NCBI RefSeq assembly: GCF_001652725.1
Contig: NZ_LWHJ01000011.1
Span: forward strand, 62,001-126,000
Source of the DNA: Pedobacter psychrophilus
GTDB lineage: Bacteria > Bacteroidota > Bacteroidia > Sphingobacteriales > Sphingobacteriaceae
Length of the DNA stretch: 64,000 nt
Direction: 5' to 3'
The position numbers and the translations under genes were made by a program. Below the pieces are notes generated by a model that worked only from the letters and a program-made list of their open reading frames with translations, searched no databases and had not been told where the DNA came from. Positions 16,924 to 60,517 of the stretch are shown piece after piece (the first letter of the stretch is position 1; each line of letters begins with the position of its first letter).

Positions 16924-19900
16924 TTGGCAAACAAAAGCAATCAAAGGATTAACTTTGCTCAAAGTAAGCATGTGTTAGATTATCCTGATTTTCTGGATGT
17001 ACAAATCCAATCGTTCAAGGAATTCTTTCAGCTAGAAACAACTTCAGATAACCGTCATACAGAAGGTTTATTTCAGGTTTTTGCTGAAAACTTCCCGATT
17101 TCTGATTCAAGAAACATTTTTGTTCTCGAATTTCTGGATTACTTTATCGATCCACCTCGCTATGACATCCAAGAATGTATTGAGCGTGGTTTAACTTACA
17201 GTGTACCTTTAAAAGCAAAACTTCGCTTATCATGTAATGATGAGGAGCATGAGGATTTTGAAACTATCGTACAGGATGTTTATTTAGGAACTATTCCTTA
17301 TATGACTCCCAAAGGTACTTTCGTTATCAATGGTGCAGAGCGTGTTATTGTTTCTCAGTTACACAGATCACCAGGTGTATTCTTCGGCGTAAGTCGTCAT
17401 ACAAACGGTAGTAAGCTTTATTCTGCTCGTGTAATTCCTTTTAAAGGTTCATGGATAGAATTTGCAACTGACGTTAATAACGTGATGTACGCTTATATCG
17501 ATCGTAAGAAAAAGTTCCCAGTAACTACATTGTTAAGAGCAATTGGTTATGATTCTGATAAAGATATTCTTGAGTTATTTGACCTAGCTGATGAAGTTAA
17601 GGTTAGCAAATCAGGATTAAAAAAATATATTGGTCGTAAACTAGCCGCCAGAGTTTTAAAAACTTGGGTAGAAGATTTTGTTGATGAGGATACAGGAGAA
17701 GTTGTTTCTATCCCTCGTAATGAAATTATACTTGAGCGTGAAACCATTTTAGAAGATGATCATATTGATATGATTGTTGATGCGGGAGTAAAATCCTTAA
17801 TCCTTTCTAAAGAAGATGGCAACACTGGTGATTATACTATCATTTACAATACGTTGCAAAAAGATACTTCCAATTCTGCAAAAGAAGCGGTAGAACATAT
17901 ATATAGACAATTACGTAACGCCGAACCACCTGATGAGGAAACTGCTCGTGGTATCATAGATCGTTTATTCTTTTCAGATAAACGTTATGATTTAGGAGAT
18001 GTAGGTCGTTATAGAATCAATCGTAAATTAAAAATGGATACTCCTGTTGAAACTAAGGTTTTAACTAAGTTAGACATTATTGCGATTGTTAAATATTTGA
18101 TCAAGTTAATTAACTCAAAAGAAGATGTTGATGATATTGATCACTTGTCAAACAGAAGGGTAAGAACTGTAGGCGAGCAATTGTACGCTCAGTTTGGTGT
18201 TGGTTTAGCTCGTATGGCTAGAACGATCCGTGAACGTATGAATATTCGTGACAACGAGGTATTTACACCAACAGATTTAATTAATGCCCGTACTTTATCT
18301 TCTGTAATTAATTCTTTCTTCGGAACTAATCAGTTATCTCAATTCATGGATCAAACAAATCCATTAGCAGAGATTACACACAAACGTCGTTTGTCAGCTT
18401 TAGGTCCAGGTGGTTTATCAAGAGAAAGAGCTGGTTTTGAGGTTCGAGATGTTCACTATACTCACTACGGTAGGTTGTGTACTATTGAAACTCCAGAGGG
18501 ACCAAATATTGGTTTAATTTCTTCTCTTTGTGTTCATGCGAAGATTAATAACTTAGGTTTTATCGAAACTCCTTACCGTAAAGTAAATGATGGTGTGGTA
18601 GTAGTAGATCAGCCGGTTACTTATTTATCTGCTGAGGATGAAGACGGAATGACCATTGCACAAGCAAATGCTCAATATAGCGATAAGGGTGTTTTTGAAG
18701 ATGACAAAGTTAAAGCAAGATATGAAGGTGACTTCCCTGTAATCGATCCTGAAAAGTTAGATTATATTGATATTGCTCCAAACCAAATTACTTCAATTGC
18801 AGCTTCTTTAATTCCTTTCTTAGAACATGATGATGCGAATAGAGCCTTAATGGGTTCTAACATGCAACGTCAGGCTGTTCCTTTGTTACGTCCACAAGCT
18901 CCAATTGTTGGAACTGGATTAGAAGGAAGAGTTGCTCGAGATTCTAGAACATTAATCAATGCAGAAGGAAACGGTGTTGTTGAGTATGTTGATGCTAATA
19001 AAATTACTATCAAATACGAAAGAAATGATGATGACAGATTAGTTTCGTTTGATGGCGAGTCAAGGAGTTATAACTTAATTAAGTTTAAGAAAACTAACCA
19101 AAGTACTTGTATCAATTTAAAACCTATCGTTAAGAAAGGTCAAAAAGTTGAAAAAGGACAAGTTCTTTGTGAAGGTTATGCCACGCAAGATGGAGAATTA
19201 GCATTAGGTATCAACTTAAAAGTAGCATTCATGCCATGGCAAGGATACAACTTTGAGGATGCGATTGTAATCTCAGAAAGAGTAGTTTCTCAAGATATTT
19301 TCACTTCACTTCATATTGAAGAATTTGAATTAGAAGTTAGAGATACAAAAAGAGGAGAAGAAGAATTAACACCAGATATTCCTAACGTTTCTGAGGAAGC
19401 TACTAAAGATTTGGATGAGCATGGAATTATCCGTGTTGGTGCAGATGTTCAAGAAGGTGATATCTTAATTGGTAAGATTACTCCAAAAGGAGAATCAGAT
19501 CCATCTCCAGAAGAAAAATTACTAAGAGCAATTTTTGGTGATAAAGCGGGAGACGTTAAAGATGCTTCATTGAAAACTCCACCATCCATTAAAGGTGTTG
19601 TTATCGATACAAAACTATTCTCCAGAGCTAAGAAAACTTCTAAAGCAGAAGAGAAAGCGTTAATTGAAAAATTAGATGCTAAACATGAAAAAGCTGTAAG
19701 AGAGCTTAGAGAAAGTTTAGTTGATAAAATGTTTACGATTGTTAACGGTAAAACATCTCAAGGTGTTTATAATGTGTACAAAGAACTATTAATTGCTAAA
19801 GGTGTAAAATTCACCCAGAAGATATTAATGGAATTAGATTATAATCACATCAACCCAACAAAATGGACTACTGATGATGATAAAAATGATTTGATTAAAA

Positions 19901-20724
19901 TCTTGTTACACAATTTCGGTATCAAAACTAATGAAGAATTAGGAGCATACAGAAGAGATAAGTTTGCGATAAGTGTTGGTGATGAATTACCATCAGGTAT
20001 TGTTCAAATGGCTAAAGTTTATGTTGCTAAAAAACGTAAATTAAAAGTTGGTGATAAAATGGCTGGGCGTCATGGAAATAAAGGTATTGTTGCTCGTATC
20101 GTAAGAGACGAAGATATGCCTTTCTTATCAGATGGAACTCCAGTTGATATTGTTCTTAACCCATTAGGTGTGCCGTCTCGTATGAACTTAGGACAGATTT
20201 ACGAAACTGTTTTAGGTTGGGCCGGTAAAGAATTAGGGTTAAAATTTGCAACTCCGATTTTTGATGGTGCATCTCATGATGAGGTTGAAGCATATGTGAA
20301 ACAAGCTGGTGTACCAGAATCTGGAAGAACATATTTATACAACGGATTAACAGGTGAGCGTTTTGATCAACATACTACTGTAGGTATTATTTATATGCTG
20401 AAATTAGGTCACATGGTTGATGATAAAATGCATGCTCGTTCTATCGGACCGTACTCATTAATTACTCAACAGCCATTAGGTGGTAAAGCACAATTCGGTG
20501 GTCAGCGTTTTGGTGAGATGGAGGTTTGGGCATTAGAAGCATTTGGTGCATCAAACATCTTACAAGAAATCTTAACTGTTAAATCTGATGATGTTGTAGG
20601 TAGAGCTAAAACTTACGAAGCTATCGTAAAAGGCGAAAACTTACCAACTCCAGGTGTTCCGGAATCATTCAACGTATTGGTTCATGAACTAAGAGGATTA
20701 GGATTAGATATTACATTAGACTAG
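16924..20724 (+). CDS. rpoB: RNA polymerase beta subunit
   Basis: This is a 1266-residue protein starting at TTG ([15 protein letters not shown]). No nearer ATG preserves the conserved N-terminus. The rifampicin-pocket cluster reads [38 protein letters not shown] (about residues 470-510), with no obvious resistance change. GNKGIVARI and the C-terminal [31 protein letters not shown] clamp region are intact. The length is normal for Bacteroidota. It forms core polymerase with rpoC, which follows after an 82-bp repeat-filled gap. Confidence 0.98.
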
Positions 20725-20728
20725 TTTT

Positions 20729-20798
20729 AAGTTATAAGTTGTAGGTTATAGGTTTTACTTATCACTTACAACTTACAACTTTTAACTTTCAACTTAAA
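20729..20798. repeat. heptameric degenerate repeat array between rpoB and rpoC
   Basis: Exactly ten contiguous 7-nt units fill most of the 82-bp gap. Four units of the type AAGTTAT/AGGTTAT (20729-20756) are followed by six of the type ACTTACA (20757-20798; for example ACTTACA at 20764 and at 20771). The second type is complementary to the first in another phase, so about 21 nt of each half can pair. The last unit ends 8 nt before the rpoC ATG. Confidence 0.65.
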
Positions 20799-20806
20799 GA
20801 AAGAAT

Positions 20807-23800
20807 ATGTCTTACAAAAAGGATAGTAAAATAAAAAGTAATTTCACTTCTATTACCATCAGTTTATCTTCTCCAGAAGCAATTTTGGAAAGATCAAGTG
20901 GAGAAGTGTTGAAACCAGAAACCATCAATTACAGAACTTATAAGCCTGAACGTGATGGTTTATTCTGTGAAAGAATCTTTGGTCCGGTTAAAGATTACGA
21001 ATGTCATTGCGGTAAATACAAAAGAATTCGTTACAAAGGAATCGTTTGTGATCGTTGTGGTGTTGAGGTTACTGAGAAAAAAGTACGTCGTGAGCGTATG
21101 GGACACATTAACTTGGTAGTTCCGGTTGCGCACATTTGGTATTTTAGATCTTTGCCTAACAAAATTGGTTACCTTTTAGGATTACCAACAAAAAGATTAG
21201 ATTTAATTATCTATTACGAAAGATATGTAGTAATCCAGTCTGGTATGATGACCGACGAAGGAATTAGTTACATGGATTTCTTAACAGAGGAAGAATACTT
21301 AGATATTTTAGATAAGTTGCCTAAAGACAATCAATATCTTGATGATAAAGATCCTAATAAATTCATCGCCAAAATGGGCGCTGAAGCTTTAGAAGATTTA
21401 TTAAAAAGATTGAATTTAGATCAACAATCTTATGATTTACGTCACCAGGCAGCAAACGAAACTTCACAACAACGTAAAAACGAAGCTTTAAAACGCCTAC
21501 AAGTTGTTGAGGCTTTCCGTGATGCTAAAACTCGTATAGAGAATAACCCAGAGTGGATGATTGTAAAAATCGTCCCTGTAATTCCACCAGAATTACGTCC
21601 GTTAGTTCCTTTAGAAGGTGGTCGTTTTGCAACTTCAGATTTAAATGATCTTTACAGAAGAGTAATTATCCGTAACAATCGTTTAAAACGATTAATGGAA
21701 ATTAAAGCTCCAGAAGTAATCTTACGTAATGAAAAACGTATGTTACAGGAAGCTGTAGATTCATTATTTGACAACTCACGTAAAGTGAATGCTGTTAAAA
21801 CTGAAGGTAACAGAGCATTAAAATCTTTATCAGATATATTAAAAGGTAAGCAAGGTCGTTTCCGTCAAAACTTATTAGGTAAGCGTGTGGATTATTCCGG
21901 ACGTTCTGTAATTGTTGTTGGACCAACTTTGAAATTACACGAATGTGGTTTACCTAAAGATATGGCTGCTGAGCTATTTAAACCGTTTATCATTCGTAAA
22001 ATGATTGAGCGTGGAGTAGTTAAAACAGTTAAATCTGCTAAGAAAATTGTTGATAGAAAAGATCCATTAGTTTGGGATATTTTGGAGAATGTACTAAAAG
22101 GACATCCAATTCTTTTAAACAGAGCGCCAACATTGCACAGATTAGGTATCCAAGCTTTCCAACCAAAATTAATCGAAGGAAAAGCAATTCAATTGCACCC
22201 TTTAGTATGTACAGCATTTAACGCCGATTTTGATGGTGACCAGATGGCAGTTCACGTACCACTAGGTAACGCTGCAGTTTTGGAAGCTCAAATCTTGATG
22301 TTAGCTTCTCATAATATCTTAAATCCAGCTAACGGAACTCCAGTAACAGTACCATCTCAGGATATGGTTTTGGGTCTTTATTATATGACCAAAGGCCGTA
22401 AAACTGAAGAAGGACATATAATTAAAGGAGAAGGACAAACATTTTATTCTTCAGAAGAAGTAAATATAGCTTACAACGAAAAGAGAATTGATTTACATGC
22501 TTTTATTAAAGTAAAAGCTCACATCAAAGAAAATGGTGTTTTGGTAGAAAAAATTATCGATACAACTGTTGGAAGAGTATTATTTAATGAAGTAGTACCA
22601 AAAGAGGTAGGTTACATTAATGAACTTTTAACTAAAAAATCATTACGTGATATTATTGGTGAGGTTGTAAAAGTAACTGGTATGGCTGGTGCTGCAGATT
22701 TCTTGGATGAAATTAAAACATTAGGATTCCAATCAGCATTTAGAGGAGGTTTATCTTTCAATCTGAAAGATTTAAATATCCCTGATGAAAAACATACTTT
22801 ATTAGAGCAAGCCCGTAAAGAAGTTGATGATGTAATGAATAATTACAACTTGGGTTTCATTACTAATAATGAACGTTATAATCAGATTATTGATATTTGG
22901 ACACGTATTAACAATAGATTAACTTCTCATGTAATGACGCAGTTAACTAATGATAATCAAGGATTTAACTCAGTTTATATGATGTTGGATTCTGGAGCTC
23001 GTGGTTCTAAAGAACAAATTCGTCAGTTATGTGGTATGAGGGGATTGATGGCGAAACCTCAAAAATCTGGTTCAGGTGGAGAGATTATCGAAAATCCAAT
23101 TCTTTCTAACTTTAAAGAAGGATTATCTGTATTAGAGTATTTTATTTCTACTCACGGTGCTCGTAAAGGTTTAGCCGATACAGCATTAAAAACTGCCGAT
23201 GCGGGTTATTTAACACGTCGTTTACATGATGTAGCACAAGATATGGTTATTAAACACCATGATTGTGGTACTTTAAGAGGCATGTTTACTACCGCTTTAA
23301 AAGACCAAGAGGATATCGTTGAACCATTATATGACAGAATTTTAGGTCGTACTTCATTACATGATGTTTATGATCCTGTTAGTAATGAATTATATGTAAA
23401 AGCAGATCAGGATATTACTGAAGAGATTGCTAAAAGAATTGAAGAATCTCCATTAGAAGGTATAGAAATACGTTCTGTATTAACCTGTGAAGCTACCAGA
23501 GGAGTTTGTGCATTATGTTATGGACGTAACTTAGCATCTGGAAAGCCAGTTCAAATGGGAGAAGCGGTTGGTGTAATTGCTGCTCAATCTATTGGAGAAC
23601 CAGGTACACAGTTAACTTTACGTACATTCCACGTGGTGGTACTGCATCTAACATTGCTGCAGAATCTCAAATAAATGCCAAATTTGATGGTATCATTGAA
23701 TTTGAAAATTTAAGAACTGTTACCAAGACAACAGAAGACGGAGCTACAGAAGTAGTTCTAGGACGTTCTGGTGAATTTAAAATTACTGATGCCAATTCTG

Positions 23801-25098
23801 GTAGAGTAATCATGACAAATAATATTCCTTATGGTGCTTTCCTTTTTGTAAAAGAGGGAGATAAAGTAACTAAAGGAGATAAGATTTGTTCTTGGGATCC
23901 ATATAATGCTGTTATTATTTCAGAATTTACAGGTAAGATTGAATTTGAATCTGTAATTGAAGGTGTTACTTTCCGTGAGGAGTCTGATGAGCAAACTGGT
24001 CACAGAGAAAAAGTAATTATTGATACAAGAGATAAAACTAAAAACCCGGTTGTTAAAGTTGTTGACAAAAAAGGTGGTTCTATCAGAGAATATAACGTTC
24101 CTGTTGGTGCACACGTTTCAGTTGATGAAGGTGATGAGATTAAAATGGGAGAAATTTTAGTTAAGATTCCTCGTACAACTGGAAAAACAAGAGATATTAC
24201 CGGTGGTTTACCAAGGGTAACAGAATTATTTGAAGCAAGAAATCCTTCTAATCCTGCTGTTGTAACTGAAATTGATGGAGTGGTTACTTTAGGCGGTATC
24301 AAACGTGGTAACCGTGAAGCAACTATCGAATCAAGAGATGGACAAATAAAGAAATACTTGGTTCCGCTTTCTAAGCACATTTTGGTACAAGATAATGACT
24401 TTGTGAAAGCTGGTATGCCTTTATCTGATGGTGCTATTTCTCCTGGAGATATTCTATCAATTAAAGGTCCTGCTGCTGTACAAGAATACTTAGTTAATGG
24501 TATACAAGAAGTTTACCGTTTACAAGGTGTAAAAATCAACGATAAACACTTTGAAACCATCGTTCACCAAATGATGCAGAAAGTATTGATTGAAGATGCA
24601 GGCGATACAAGTTTCTTAGAAAAACAAGCTGTTGATAGATTTGATTTCGCAATTGAAAACGATGATATCTACGATAAAATGGTTGTTGAAGACGCAGGTG
24701 ATTCTACAGTTTTAAAAGAAGGTCAAATTTTATCTGTACGTAAATTACGTGATGAAAATTCTCAGTTAAAACGTAAGGATTTGAAATTAGTTAGTGCAAG
24801 AGAAGCAAGAGCAGCTACTGCAAGCCCAATGTTGCAAGGTATAACCAGAGCATCTTTAGGTACTAAATCATTCATTTCTGCCGCATCTTTCCAAGAGACT
24901 ACTAAAGTATTGAACGAAGCAGCAATTGCTGGTAAACGTGATAATTTATTAGGATTGAAAGAAAACGTTATCGTTGGACACTTAATTCCTTCTGGAACAG
25001 GCTTACGTGATTACGAAAGAATCATTGTTGGTTCTCAAGAAGAATACGATAAGTTAATGGCTTCTAAGAAAGAAGAAGAGGAAGAAGTTGAGGCTTAA
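20807..25098 (+). CDS. rpoC: RNA polymerase beta' subunit, interrupted by a one-base deletion
   Basis: The reading frame from 20807 runs to a stop at 23674 (955 residues). The remaining C-terminal part continues in another frame from about 23636 to 25098. Restoring one G in the run at 23635-23636 rejoins [16 protein letters not shown] and yields about 1430 residues, the usual Bacteroidota length. The N-terminal zinc site (CHCGKY..CDRCG, about residues 64-85), the catalytic [12 protein letters not shown] (about 470), the second zinc cluster ([13 protein letters not shown], about 895-907) and the C-terminal clamp are all intact. Because the gene is essential, a sequencing or assembly error in the GGG run is the likeliest cause. 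A real split would need both pieces to be made and to assemble. Confidence 0.93.
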
Positions 25099-25340: not shown

Positions 25341-25354
25341 TTTCTTTGTTTATT

Positions 25355-25443
25355 GCGTTAGGGATAGAAACGGCATCCTTTTTTGCCTATCACCGATAAG
25401 CAATTAGCAAAAAAGATACAGTGAATAGCCCGTTAAAACGCCC
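25355..25443 (+). repeat. REP-like dispersed imperfect palindrome (clear copy)
   Basis: It begins GCGTTAGGGATAGAAACGGC, then ATCC and T6 followed by GC. After a short loop the right arm starts GCAAAAAAGATACAG and runs through GAATAGCCCG to end in AACGCCC. The two arms pair imperfectly over about 35 nt. It matches the reverse complement of the element at 60358-60451. Confidence 0.75.
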
Positions 25444-58043: not shown

Positions 58044-58078
58044 CAGCTTTAAGCCTTTAGCTTTTTGCTTTAAGCCTT
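58044..58078. repeat. heptameric degenerate repeat array behind groEL
   Basis: Five contiguous 7-nt units follow the consensus nnGCyTT (CAGCTTT at 58044, TAGCTTT at 58058, and AAGCCTT at 58051 and 58072). The array lies between the groEL stop codon and its terminator. Confidence 0.55.
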
Positions 58079-58084
58079 TAAAAA

Positions 58085-59737
<1,653 letters not shown>

Positions 59738-59739
59738 TT

Positions 59740-59774
59740 AGATATGAGATTTGAGTTTTGAGTAATGAGACTTA
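59740..59774. repeat. heptameric array (groEL-proximal half) in the groES-groEL gap
   Basis: Five contiguous 7-nt units of the type AGATTTG or AGTTTTG (AGATATG at 59740, AGTAATG at 59761) start 9 bp from the groEL start codon. The complementary half is at 59844-59878. Confidence 0.55.
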
Positions 59775-59843
59775 TAAATCGCAATAAACAAAACCAAACA
59801 AATTTTAAATTAATTTATTTTTTTAGTTAGAGACAGAGTTGAA

Positions 59844-59878
59844 CTCTCAATACTCAAATCTCTATACTCAATACTGAT
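59844..59878. repeat. heptameric array (groES-proximal half) in the groES-groEL gap
   Basis: Five contiguous 7-nt units follow the consensus TACTCAA (TACTCAA at 59851 and 59865). Their reverse complement, TTGAGTA, matches the units at 59740-59774. The two halves lie about 70 bp apart and could pair in the groES-groEL mRNA. Confidence 0.55.
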
Positions 59879-60171
59879 TAAAGAACTGCGTAAATGTCTG
59901 ACTCACGCATGATTAAGTATTCTTTACCTTCGTAGGTAATTTCTGTACCACCATATTTGCTGTATAAAACTTTATCACCAACTTTTACATCCATCGGAAT
60001 TTGCGCACCTGTAGAATCTGCAAATTTTCCACTTCCTACTGCTACAATTATTCCTTGCGAAGGTTTTTCCTTAGCTGTATCTGGAATATAGATTCCCGAA
60101 GCTGTTTTTTCTTCTGCAGCAGCAGCTTCTACCACTACTCTGTCTGCGATAGGTTTAATGTTCAATGCCAT
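59878..60171 (-). CDS. groS: 10 kDa co-chaperonin GroES
   Basis: This 97-residue lid protein of the chaperonin has the typical start [11 protein letters not shown]. The mobile loop [21 protein letters not shown] lies at about residues 19-39, and the end is [13 protein letters not shown]. The length is normal. No CIRCE-type inverted repeat was found upstream. Confidence 0.97.
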
Positions 60172-60357: not shown

Positions 60358-60451
60358 GGCGTTTCCCATCCGCTAGCTAGCGGATGGGTCGGGCTATCCA
60401 TTACAATCTTTTTGTGAAAACAAAAAGGATTTTCATTACTATCCCTTACGC
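60358..60451 (-). repeat. REP-like dispersed imperfect palindrome with an inner perfect palindrome
   Basis: Read on the minus strand it begins GCGTAAGGGATAGTAATG, passes ATCCTTTTTG, then turns into CAAAAAGATTG and GGATAGCCCG, and ends GAAACGCCC. It lines up with the element at 25355-25443. It carries a 24-bp perfect palindrome (CCCATCCGCTAG and its complement, 60365-60388) inside one arm. It occupies the 346-bp gap between groES and the cupin gene; nothing else clear is in that gap. Confidence 0.75.
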
Positions 60452-60517
60452 AAAAAACAACCTCAATCTTAAATTTTAATTATCAATCCATTTCATTTAT
60501 TTTATAATTTTAAACTC

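Follow-up and report, generated by a model that had tools for sequence, protein, structure and literature searches.

In Sphingobacteriaceae, a predicted mRNA stem in the gap between rpoB and rpoC largely keeps its position, length and G-first polarity without keeping its sequence. Its shape seems more important than its sequence because many relatives keep the stem and the repeat length with other words. We consider it probable that the stem is selected as an intercistronic element of the mRNA, and that its arms are made by slippage in steps of 7 or 8 nt.

The window, which is the whole 64,000-nucleotide stretch of Pedobacter psychrophilus DNA analysed, comes from a genome of 4.0 Mb in 33 contigs. 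Pfam identifies the genes flanking the array. The rpoB open frame occupies positions 16924–20724 of the forward strand (putative start codon, six RNA_pol_Rpb2 domains, TAG stop at 20722–20724) and the first part of rpoC occupies 20807–23674 of the same strand. The rpoB stop and the rpoC ATG at 20807 are separated by 82 nt, and 70 nt of this gap (20729–20798) are filled by heptamers in a single phase. As the earlier note had it, four AAGTTAT-like units precede six ACTTACA-like units. The first four (20729–20756, forward strand; AAGTTAT, AAGTTGT, AGGTTAT and AGGTTTT) are of a G-type, A[AG]GTTNN, and contain no C. The six that follow (20757–20798, forward strand; ACTTATC, ACTTACA, ACTTACA, ACTTTTA, ACTTTCA and ACTTAAA) are of a C-type, ACTTNNN, and contain no G. 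The note had also called the ten heptamers exact. Its coordinates, its ten units and the 70 nt in one phase are right; 'exact' is not, since there are nine distinct words and the identity at lag 7 is 48/63 (17/21 in the first arm and 28/35 in the second). It is the period and the core that are strict. An A-rich leader (20799–20806, forward strand), similar among array-bearing congeners, precedes the rpoC ATG.

The lag-7 score of the array compares with a maximum of 36/63 in 20 dinucleotide-shuffled copies of the whole window. When lags 4–15 were scored across the native window, the best value at any lag other than 7 was 41, for lag 14 at the array itself. Tandem 7-nt intergenic units, as in bacterial heptamer simple sequence repeats, are above chance both at this locus and genome-wide. 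Reading of the sequence at 20729–20798 found no GGG tract of the kind used by quadruplexes. Rfam gave 7 matches across the window at the gathering score, none of them at the rpoB–rpoC gap; two are Flavo-1 RNAs, at 25350–25439 (forward strand, shortly after rpoC) and 60383–60456 (reverse strand). The first 300 residues of RpoC are 99% identical to those of P. segetis, a close relative. The rpoC frame breaks near 23640, where a one-base frameshift within 23600–23700 leaves a 955-aa ORF followed by a 428-aa ORF at 23812–25098; in all 16 matched congeners rpoC is an open frame of 1430–1441 aa. Both rpoB and rpoC are essential genes. Because the gene is essential, the frame break most likely arose in sequencing or assembly.

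Folded with its flanks, the gap is predicted to form a 27-bp stem that begins within the rpoB stop codon. The 5′ strand is at 20723–20753, the 3-nt terminal loop at 20754–20756 and the 3′ strand at 20757–20787, all on the forward strand. The predicted energy is −25.7 kcal/mol, the shuffled mean is −12.4 kcal/mol (z −5.1), and none of 200 shuffles folded equally low. Without flanks, a 23-bp stem is predicted. The cores of the G-type and C-type sets are complementary and pair with each other in the prediction, which agrees with the earlier claim that the second set complements the first and that the mRNA can fold into a stem. Permuting the 5′ units in the window weakens the fold by a mere 0.2 kcal/mol, because the repeat consensus alone supplies most of the pairing. 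Unit-by-unit matching of the two arms is only partial across the 50 stems in which 5′-arm units were permuted: the native order was better in 36 and worse in 14, with a mean gain of 2 kcal/mol.

We read the same gap in relatives. The genus set comprised 18 searched genomes, 17 of which matched, including the window's own. The named loci read were the best 80 of 583 confirmed matches. Searches of the order and the phylum gave matches in 60/61 and 61/61 genomes; the best 30 loci were taken from each and 58 loci were read, the own locus being present in both best-30 lists. With the window, this made 155 gaps, and removal of 12 duplicates left 143 distinct ones, mostly from Sphingobacteriaceae. 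Period was called as the strongest significant lag between 5 and 12 with z of at least 3.5, and gap classes rest on predicted folds. The 143 distinct gaps are related by descent and cannot be counted as independent trials. In 116 of them the predicted stem reaches at least 15 bp and in 9 it is shorter; the other 18 gaps are shorter than 50 nt. The 116 stems divide into 58 with period 7, 15 with period 8 and 43 that are plain; no other period from 5 to 12 occurs. The 78 distinct named loci (from the best 80 of 583) comprise 32 with period 7, 12 with period 8, 23 plain, 6 weak and 5 short; a gap of less than 50 nt, too small for such a stem, was seen in 6 of these best 80. Outside the family, 28 gaps were read and 27 were distinct: three have period 7 (L197, L200 and L202), nine are plain, three weak and 12 short. 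At L214 an additional heptad stretch lies within a longer gap. The predicted heptad- or octad-armed stem is frequent within Sphingobacteriaceae and sporadic beyond the family. It is dispensable in some lineages, because 18 of the 143 gaps are below 50 nt and 9 of the 143 have stems below 15 bp.

The geometry of the stem is narrow. Between the 10th and 90th percentiles, periodic stems measure 22–31 bp with 3.4–5.3 units per arm. The median distance from the rpoB stop to the stem is 2 nt for period 7 and 0 nt for period 8, and that from the stem to the rpoC start is 18 and 26 nt, respectively. The medians for plain stems are close to these but looser (4 nt from the stop, 17 nt to the start and 21 bp). 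In the 5′ arm, G exceeds C in 71 of the 73 periodic stems and the other two are tied; in plain stems the counts are 35 with more G and 6 with more C, and folded shuffles too have a weak G-first bias (259 versus 186). A period of 7 alone describes the window locus and not the class, as 15 of the 73 periodic stems have period 8.

The words are not narrow at all. Across the 73 periodic stems we counted 47 distinct consensus words, for example AAGTTAT, AAGGTAT, AAGGCCG, ACGGGTT, AGTTGTG, AATGTTGT, AATGCGG and ACGTGAG. Turnover is visible within the genus. There, period 7 is present in 13 of 17 genomes, the own genome included, and the other four have a plain stem; the check for conservation of the period proposed in the earlier note thus came out in its favour. 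The 13 period-7 congeners use roughly three word types, with cores AAGTT, AAGGT and AAGGCC/AAGCT, and their flanking rpoB and rpoC sequences, 300 nt each, are 87–95% identical to the window. By eye, a change of word between congeners affects most units in both arms. Within the AAGTT-core set (the window and eight congeners), 2 of 22 pairs have changed on both sides and several others on one side. Both two-sided changes are AU to UA and are shared by the window with its nearest relative.

Arrays of this type are not confined to rpoB–rpoC. In 79 kb of own intergenic DNA drawn from 0.8 Mb, lag 7 was the most excessive of lags 2–30 (z ~7.8), as the autocorrelation check suggested in the note would have it; lags 8, 6, 15 and 3 were likewise in excess, at z 4–5. 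Genome-wide scans used genes from a simple longest-ORF script, such that some intergenic stretches may contain small genes, and they excluded gaps below 30 nt and, in one scan, gaps above 500 nt. The own genome was scanned over 1.18 Mb (contigs with pattern matches); native arrays and shuffles there gave 25 and 2.0 at period 7, 7 and 2.8 at period 8, and 18 and 0.6 at period 14. In a pooled sample of 2.38 Mb from nine genomes the corresponding figures were 69 and 3.2, 26 and 3.2, and 33 and 1.2. These pooled totals lean upwards because the choice of genomes was not random: G053, G058, G061 and G077 were picked for an rpoB–rpoC gap that is at least partly periodic, and the G008 and G009 samples were enlarged after arrays had been found there. 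The pooled sample has small excesses at periods 4 (13 versus 4.0), 11 (8 versus 1.8), 12 (8 versus 3.2) and 15 (13 versus 2.4), and none over shuffles at periods 5, 6, 9, 10 or 13. Period 8 accounts for 26 of the 95 sampled arrays. Density varies: for periods 7 and 8, there were 17 and 14 arrays in 300 kb of G008, 15 and 4 in 100 kb of G053, and none in 100 kb of G006 or in 100 kb of G077. Within one genome the unit words are many and differ by locus. Perfect or near-perfect arrays occur in gaps of Mucilaginibacter dorajii (L156–L160, G008:C4:100001-200000), with ~13 copies of an 8-mer of the TTCAATAA type and ~13 copies of the 7-mer TCATTAG; these long arrays are apparently recent expansions.

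Array arms follow a G/C rule close to gene ends. Within 60 nt of a stop, G exceeds C in 28 of 33 arms (C exceeds G in 3 and 2 are tied); within 60 nt of a start, C exceeds G in 42 of 48 (5 the reverse, 1 tied). Only the window array, out of 95, was split at its skew turn before arms were counted, and without it the counts are 27 G, 3 C and 2 ties at stops and 41 C, 5 G and 1 tie at starts. For unsplit arrays within 60 nt in same-strand gaps, they are 23 G, 1 C and 2 ties at stops and 32 C and 3 G at starts. Divergent starts within 60 nt gave 9 C, 2 G and 1 tie, and convergent stops within 60 nt gave 4 G and 2 C; over all distances convergent gaps split 4 versus 4, with no rule. The rule also fails more than 60 nt from a gene end (2 G versus 5 C at stops; 2 C versus 4 G with 2 ties at starts). 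Array-free gap windows have no rule after stops (401 G, 408 C) and a weak one before starts (352 G, 584 C). Gaps with two arms have G before C on the forward strand in 14 cases and the reverse in none, or 13 to 0 without the window array. We rejected 'G first' as evidence for the transcribed strand. Since either strand of a palindrome is G-first, polarity by itself is no proof of action at the level of RNA.

Arrays were carried by 61 of 857 same-strand gaps, 7 of 196 convergent gaps and 10 of 265 divergent gaps. In same-strand gaps of at least 150 nt, their median distance from a gene end is 10 nt, versus 51 nt for uniform placement (n = 39). The medians are 4 nt versus 36 nt for random placement in convergent gaps (n = 5) and 33 nt versus 63 nt in divergent gaps (n = 15).

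Further loci illustrate the same architecture. All on the reverse strand, the groES–groEL gap (59732–59877) has a C-type array before groEL (59735–59769, C11:121735-121769; array scan, TRF and sequence) and a G-type array directly after the groES stop (59846–59875; TRF, below the array score threshold), and a period-7 array directly follows the groEL stop (58045–58081; TRF and sequence). Here groES is the ORF at 59878–60171 with a Cpn10 domain, and groEL was also identified by Pfam. These arrays use words other than those of the rpoB–rpoC array, and the groES–groEL gap folds less strikingly than rpoB–rpoC (z −2.97). Arrays are also present in the own genome in the gaps of grpE–dnaJ, hisG–hisD, two tldD-type pairs and moxR; the names grpE, dnaJ, hisG, hisD, tldD, moxR and atpG were recognised from sequence alone. 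Two neighbouring, similar tldD-like pairs (C27:36542-36626 and C27:47721-47818) have differently arranged heptad stems in their gaps. Across 18 genus genomes, the best lag in the grpE–dnaJ gap is 8 in 13 (z from 2.3 to 5.4, some values being below the 3.5 threshold used at rpoB–rpoC); four gaps are non-periodic and one is 12 nt long. Period 7 at rpoB–rpoC is combined with period 8 at grpE–dnaJ in 12 congeners. Judged on these gaps, period is a property of the locus. The hisG–hisD gap was considered as a third conserved locus and rejected: 33 of 41 genomes matched, and of the 30 loci read just 4, counting the own genome's, reached a z of at least 3.5 at lag 7 or 8. At many hisG–hisD loci the alignment does not start at the true ATG, which puts the gap length wrong by a few codons.

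Four congeners, G021–G024, bear on the separation of array and stem. Their genomes measure 2.2–2.8 Mb (drafts in 90–220 contigs), may form one clade, and are non-periodic at both rpoB–rpoC and grpE–dnaJ; one of the four array-poor loci, L187, is weakly periodic under a looser criterion. Array loss was gauged by the ACTT-type word only: whole-genome counts of ACTTNNNACTTNNNACTT are 1, 2, 0 and 3, with 4, 3, 1 and 0 for a reversed-pattern control, and the other 14 genus genomes have 11–178, with 0–7 for the control. Their predicted rpoB–rpoC stems are plain and short, at 15, 15, 15 and 22 bp. The arrays are all but gone in these genomes while the stem stays, and hence the material is separable from the trait.

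A Y-family polymerase is a weak candidate for the slippage process. Its domain, PF00817, is present in 14 of 14 array-rich genus genomes and was not found in three of the four array-poor ones. The link is weak because the fourth array-poor genome has two copies and 38 of 41 family genomes have such a polymerase; as a marker of arrays it is suggestive within the genus and not diagnostic in the family. A reverse transcriptase was rejected as the repeat maker: RVT_1 had no match in the own genome and was found in just 7 of 18 genus genomes.

We propose the following scheme. The stem-loop would begin at the rpoB stop codon and end ~20 nt short of the rpoC start. Tandem duplication in steps of 7 or 8 nt, by polymerase slippage, would make and renew the arms, and fold-back copying or selection would keep the opposite arm complementary. 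A new word could thereby spread through both arms with the stem persisting. Selection would keep the untranslated gap folded; so folded, it may be shielded from ribonucleases and Rho, with the rpoC start left single-stranded. The stem would be the selected trait and the heptad its building material. The earlier note had suggested replication slippage with selection on structure, and this fits the concentration of periods at 7 and 8, the expanded arrays and the retention of the stem despite word turnover. Against the note's alternative, an RNA control element, stand the 6 of 80 named loci whose gap leaves too little space for such a stem. More tentatively, and at less than even confidence, we extend the scheme to Sphingobacteriaceae and scattered other Bacteroidota. 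Their intercistronic stems would be free of sequence and defined by geometry alone (stop-anchored, G-first, ~25 bp, with arms of 7- or 8-mers), and a slippage process that can be lost as a unit would rewrite the words under selection for the stem.

The arrays could instead be a neutral by-product of mutation, in which slippage favours steps of 7 or 8 nt, fold-back copying yields palindromes and gaps tolerate them. Under this reading one would expect arrays in the gaps of numerous unrelated operons and also between convergent or divergent genes, together with perfect expanded arrays, unit words under no constraint and relatives with no stem, all of which are found. Conversely, the stem varies little in length, number of units and stop-anchored placement despite the turnover of words. 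Plain stems lie at about the same place, arrays lie close to gene ends, and the array-less congeners retain a plain rpoB–rpoC stem, though a short one. We regard a neutral origin as possible but unlikely.

The stem may also act as a translational insulator, a role that is compatible with the selected, slippage-built stem that we favour. A unit bearing a stop codon would stop all three frames after rpoB because neither 7 nor 8 is divisible by 3, and false starts before rpoC would be few because the 3′ arm contains no G. At rpoB–rpoC the counts fit. The 5′ arms of periodic stems contain 224 stop codons versus 187 by composition (z 4.1), and the median distances to a stop in the three frames are 9, 13 and 20 nt versus 24, 28 and 29 nt in shuffles. 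The 3′ arms contain 40 start codons in sense versus 153 in antisense and 52.7 by composition. However, the 5′ arm lacks a stop in four of the 58 stems with period 7, and periods 4, 5, 10 and 11 would be equally suitable yet are rare. Genome-wide, arrays near stops have no excess of stop codons (92 versus 88.0 by composition), and those near starts exceed composition in NTG codons (32 versus 15.7). We rejected the three-frame-stop insulator as a general explanation, and think it improbable even as a contributor.

Binding of a protein such as S1, a cold-shock protein or a CsrA-like factor to direct repeats is a more doubtful reading still, modelled on a proposal for the TAACTGA repeats of Beggiatoaceae in the accessible part of MacGregor (2015; PMC4679880). 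Regular 7-nt spacing next to start codons is in keeping with it. The 47 consensus words at one locus, and different words across loci of one genome, leave no common site for a protein. A terminator or attenuator within the rpoBC operon is about as improbable, or slightly more so. A stable predicted stem does follow the stop codon, and the same accessible text (PMC4679880) considers a Thioploca ingrica stem, located between the beta and beta-prime genes, a possible terminator. Yet reading of the sequence after the window stem found no U-run of the sort that follows the GC-rich stem of an intrinsic terminator, and the location is between two essential genes. In one Mucilaginibacter gap the heptad stem is followed by another hairpin, which carries a T-run. 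Least probable is a mobile palindrome, REP- or MITE-like, inserting into gaps: many gaps per genome hold a palindrome, but the own genome contains no near-identical second full copy of the window element (best match 31 nt at 90%, longest 65 nt at 72%), and words vary by locus while the period stays with the locus.

Several features of the element have precedents. Cyanobacterial STRR are intergenic tandem units of 7 nt that use a few fixed words per genome; unlike the Pedobacter element, they are not known to form a two-armed stem fixed at orthologous gaps. REP elements share sequence and recur as copies, and REP and RNase III sites are stems in the gaps of polycistronic mRNA. The Pedobacter element resembles these intercistronic stems in placement, with the difference that only its geometry recurs. 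In Xanthomonas and Nostoc, the accessible text of PMC4692102 describes intergenic heptamers, GGGAATC and GGGGA(C/T)T, most often in four units, with 70 inverted convergent pairs in Xcc and 75 in Xac. At a given gene pair, related species differ in the length and sequence of these repeats, which consist of one G-rich, G-quadruplex-capable word genome-wide (PMC4692102). Intergenic heptamers, inverted pairs and G-strand polarity are shared with Pedobacter. G-first polarity is not new, because that text already gives convergent pairs and a G-strand rule (PMC4692102). What differs here is that each locus has its own word, with many per genome, that no GGG is needed, that periods 7 and 8 both occur, and that a paired stem recurs at orthologous gaps of core operons throughout a family.

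TAACTGA direct repeats, according to the available portion of MacGregor (2015; PMC4679880), occur in Beggiatoaceae, Cyanobacteria and five Bacteroidetes. The arrays are intergenic, often next to start codons, and also precede essential genes. Two close Cyanothece strains differ mostly by indels in 7-nt steps, and the forward units contain a stop codon. One inverted case was recorded among 170 sets in the main genome, and the author predicts no RNA structure from the repeats themselves. A predicted stem in the Beggiatoaceae rpoB–rpoC gap is discussed in that portion and is apparently not built from heptamers (PMC4679880). From what the same text gives, the TAACTGA system is one fixed word in direct repeat, without a two-armed heptad stem; the unit words of the window do not include TAACTGA. 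Heptamer-derived satellites are reported for other bacteria in the accessible part of PMC6749651. The earlier note's view that such heptamers are undescribed in Bacteroidota is therefore too broad, given the five Bacteroidetes with TAACTGA (PMC4679880, as available), and holds for a hairpin with locus-specific words. A search that lacked most subscription journals found no description of a stem with locus-specific words, two periods, family-wide recurrence at orthologous gaps and near-total loss in one lineage. Heptamers, inverted pairs and polarity were already known; the family of hairpins with locus-specific words is, as far as we found, new.

Searches for conserved RNA structure usually rely on compensatory changes within alignable sequence. 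When a stem is kept and its arms are rewritten wholesale, as would be the case here, methods based on alignment have difficulty in finding it. With the four array-poor congeners, two long-standing questions could be tested: what makes bacterial tandem repeats favour units of 7 nt, and whether the stems between operon genes are selected.
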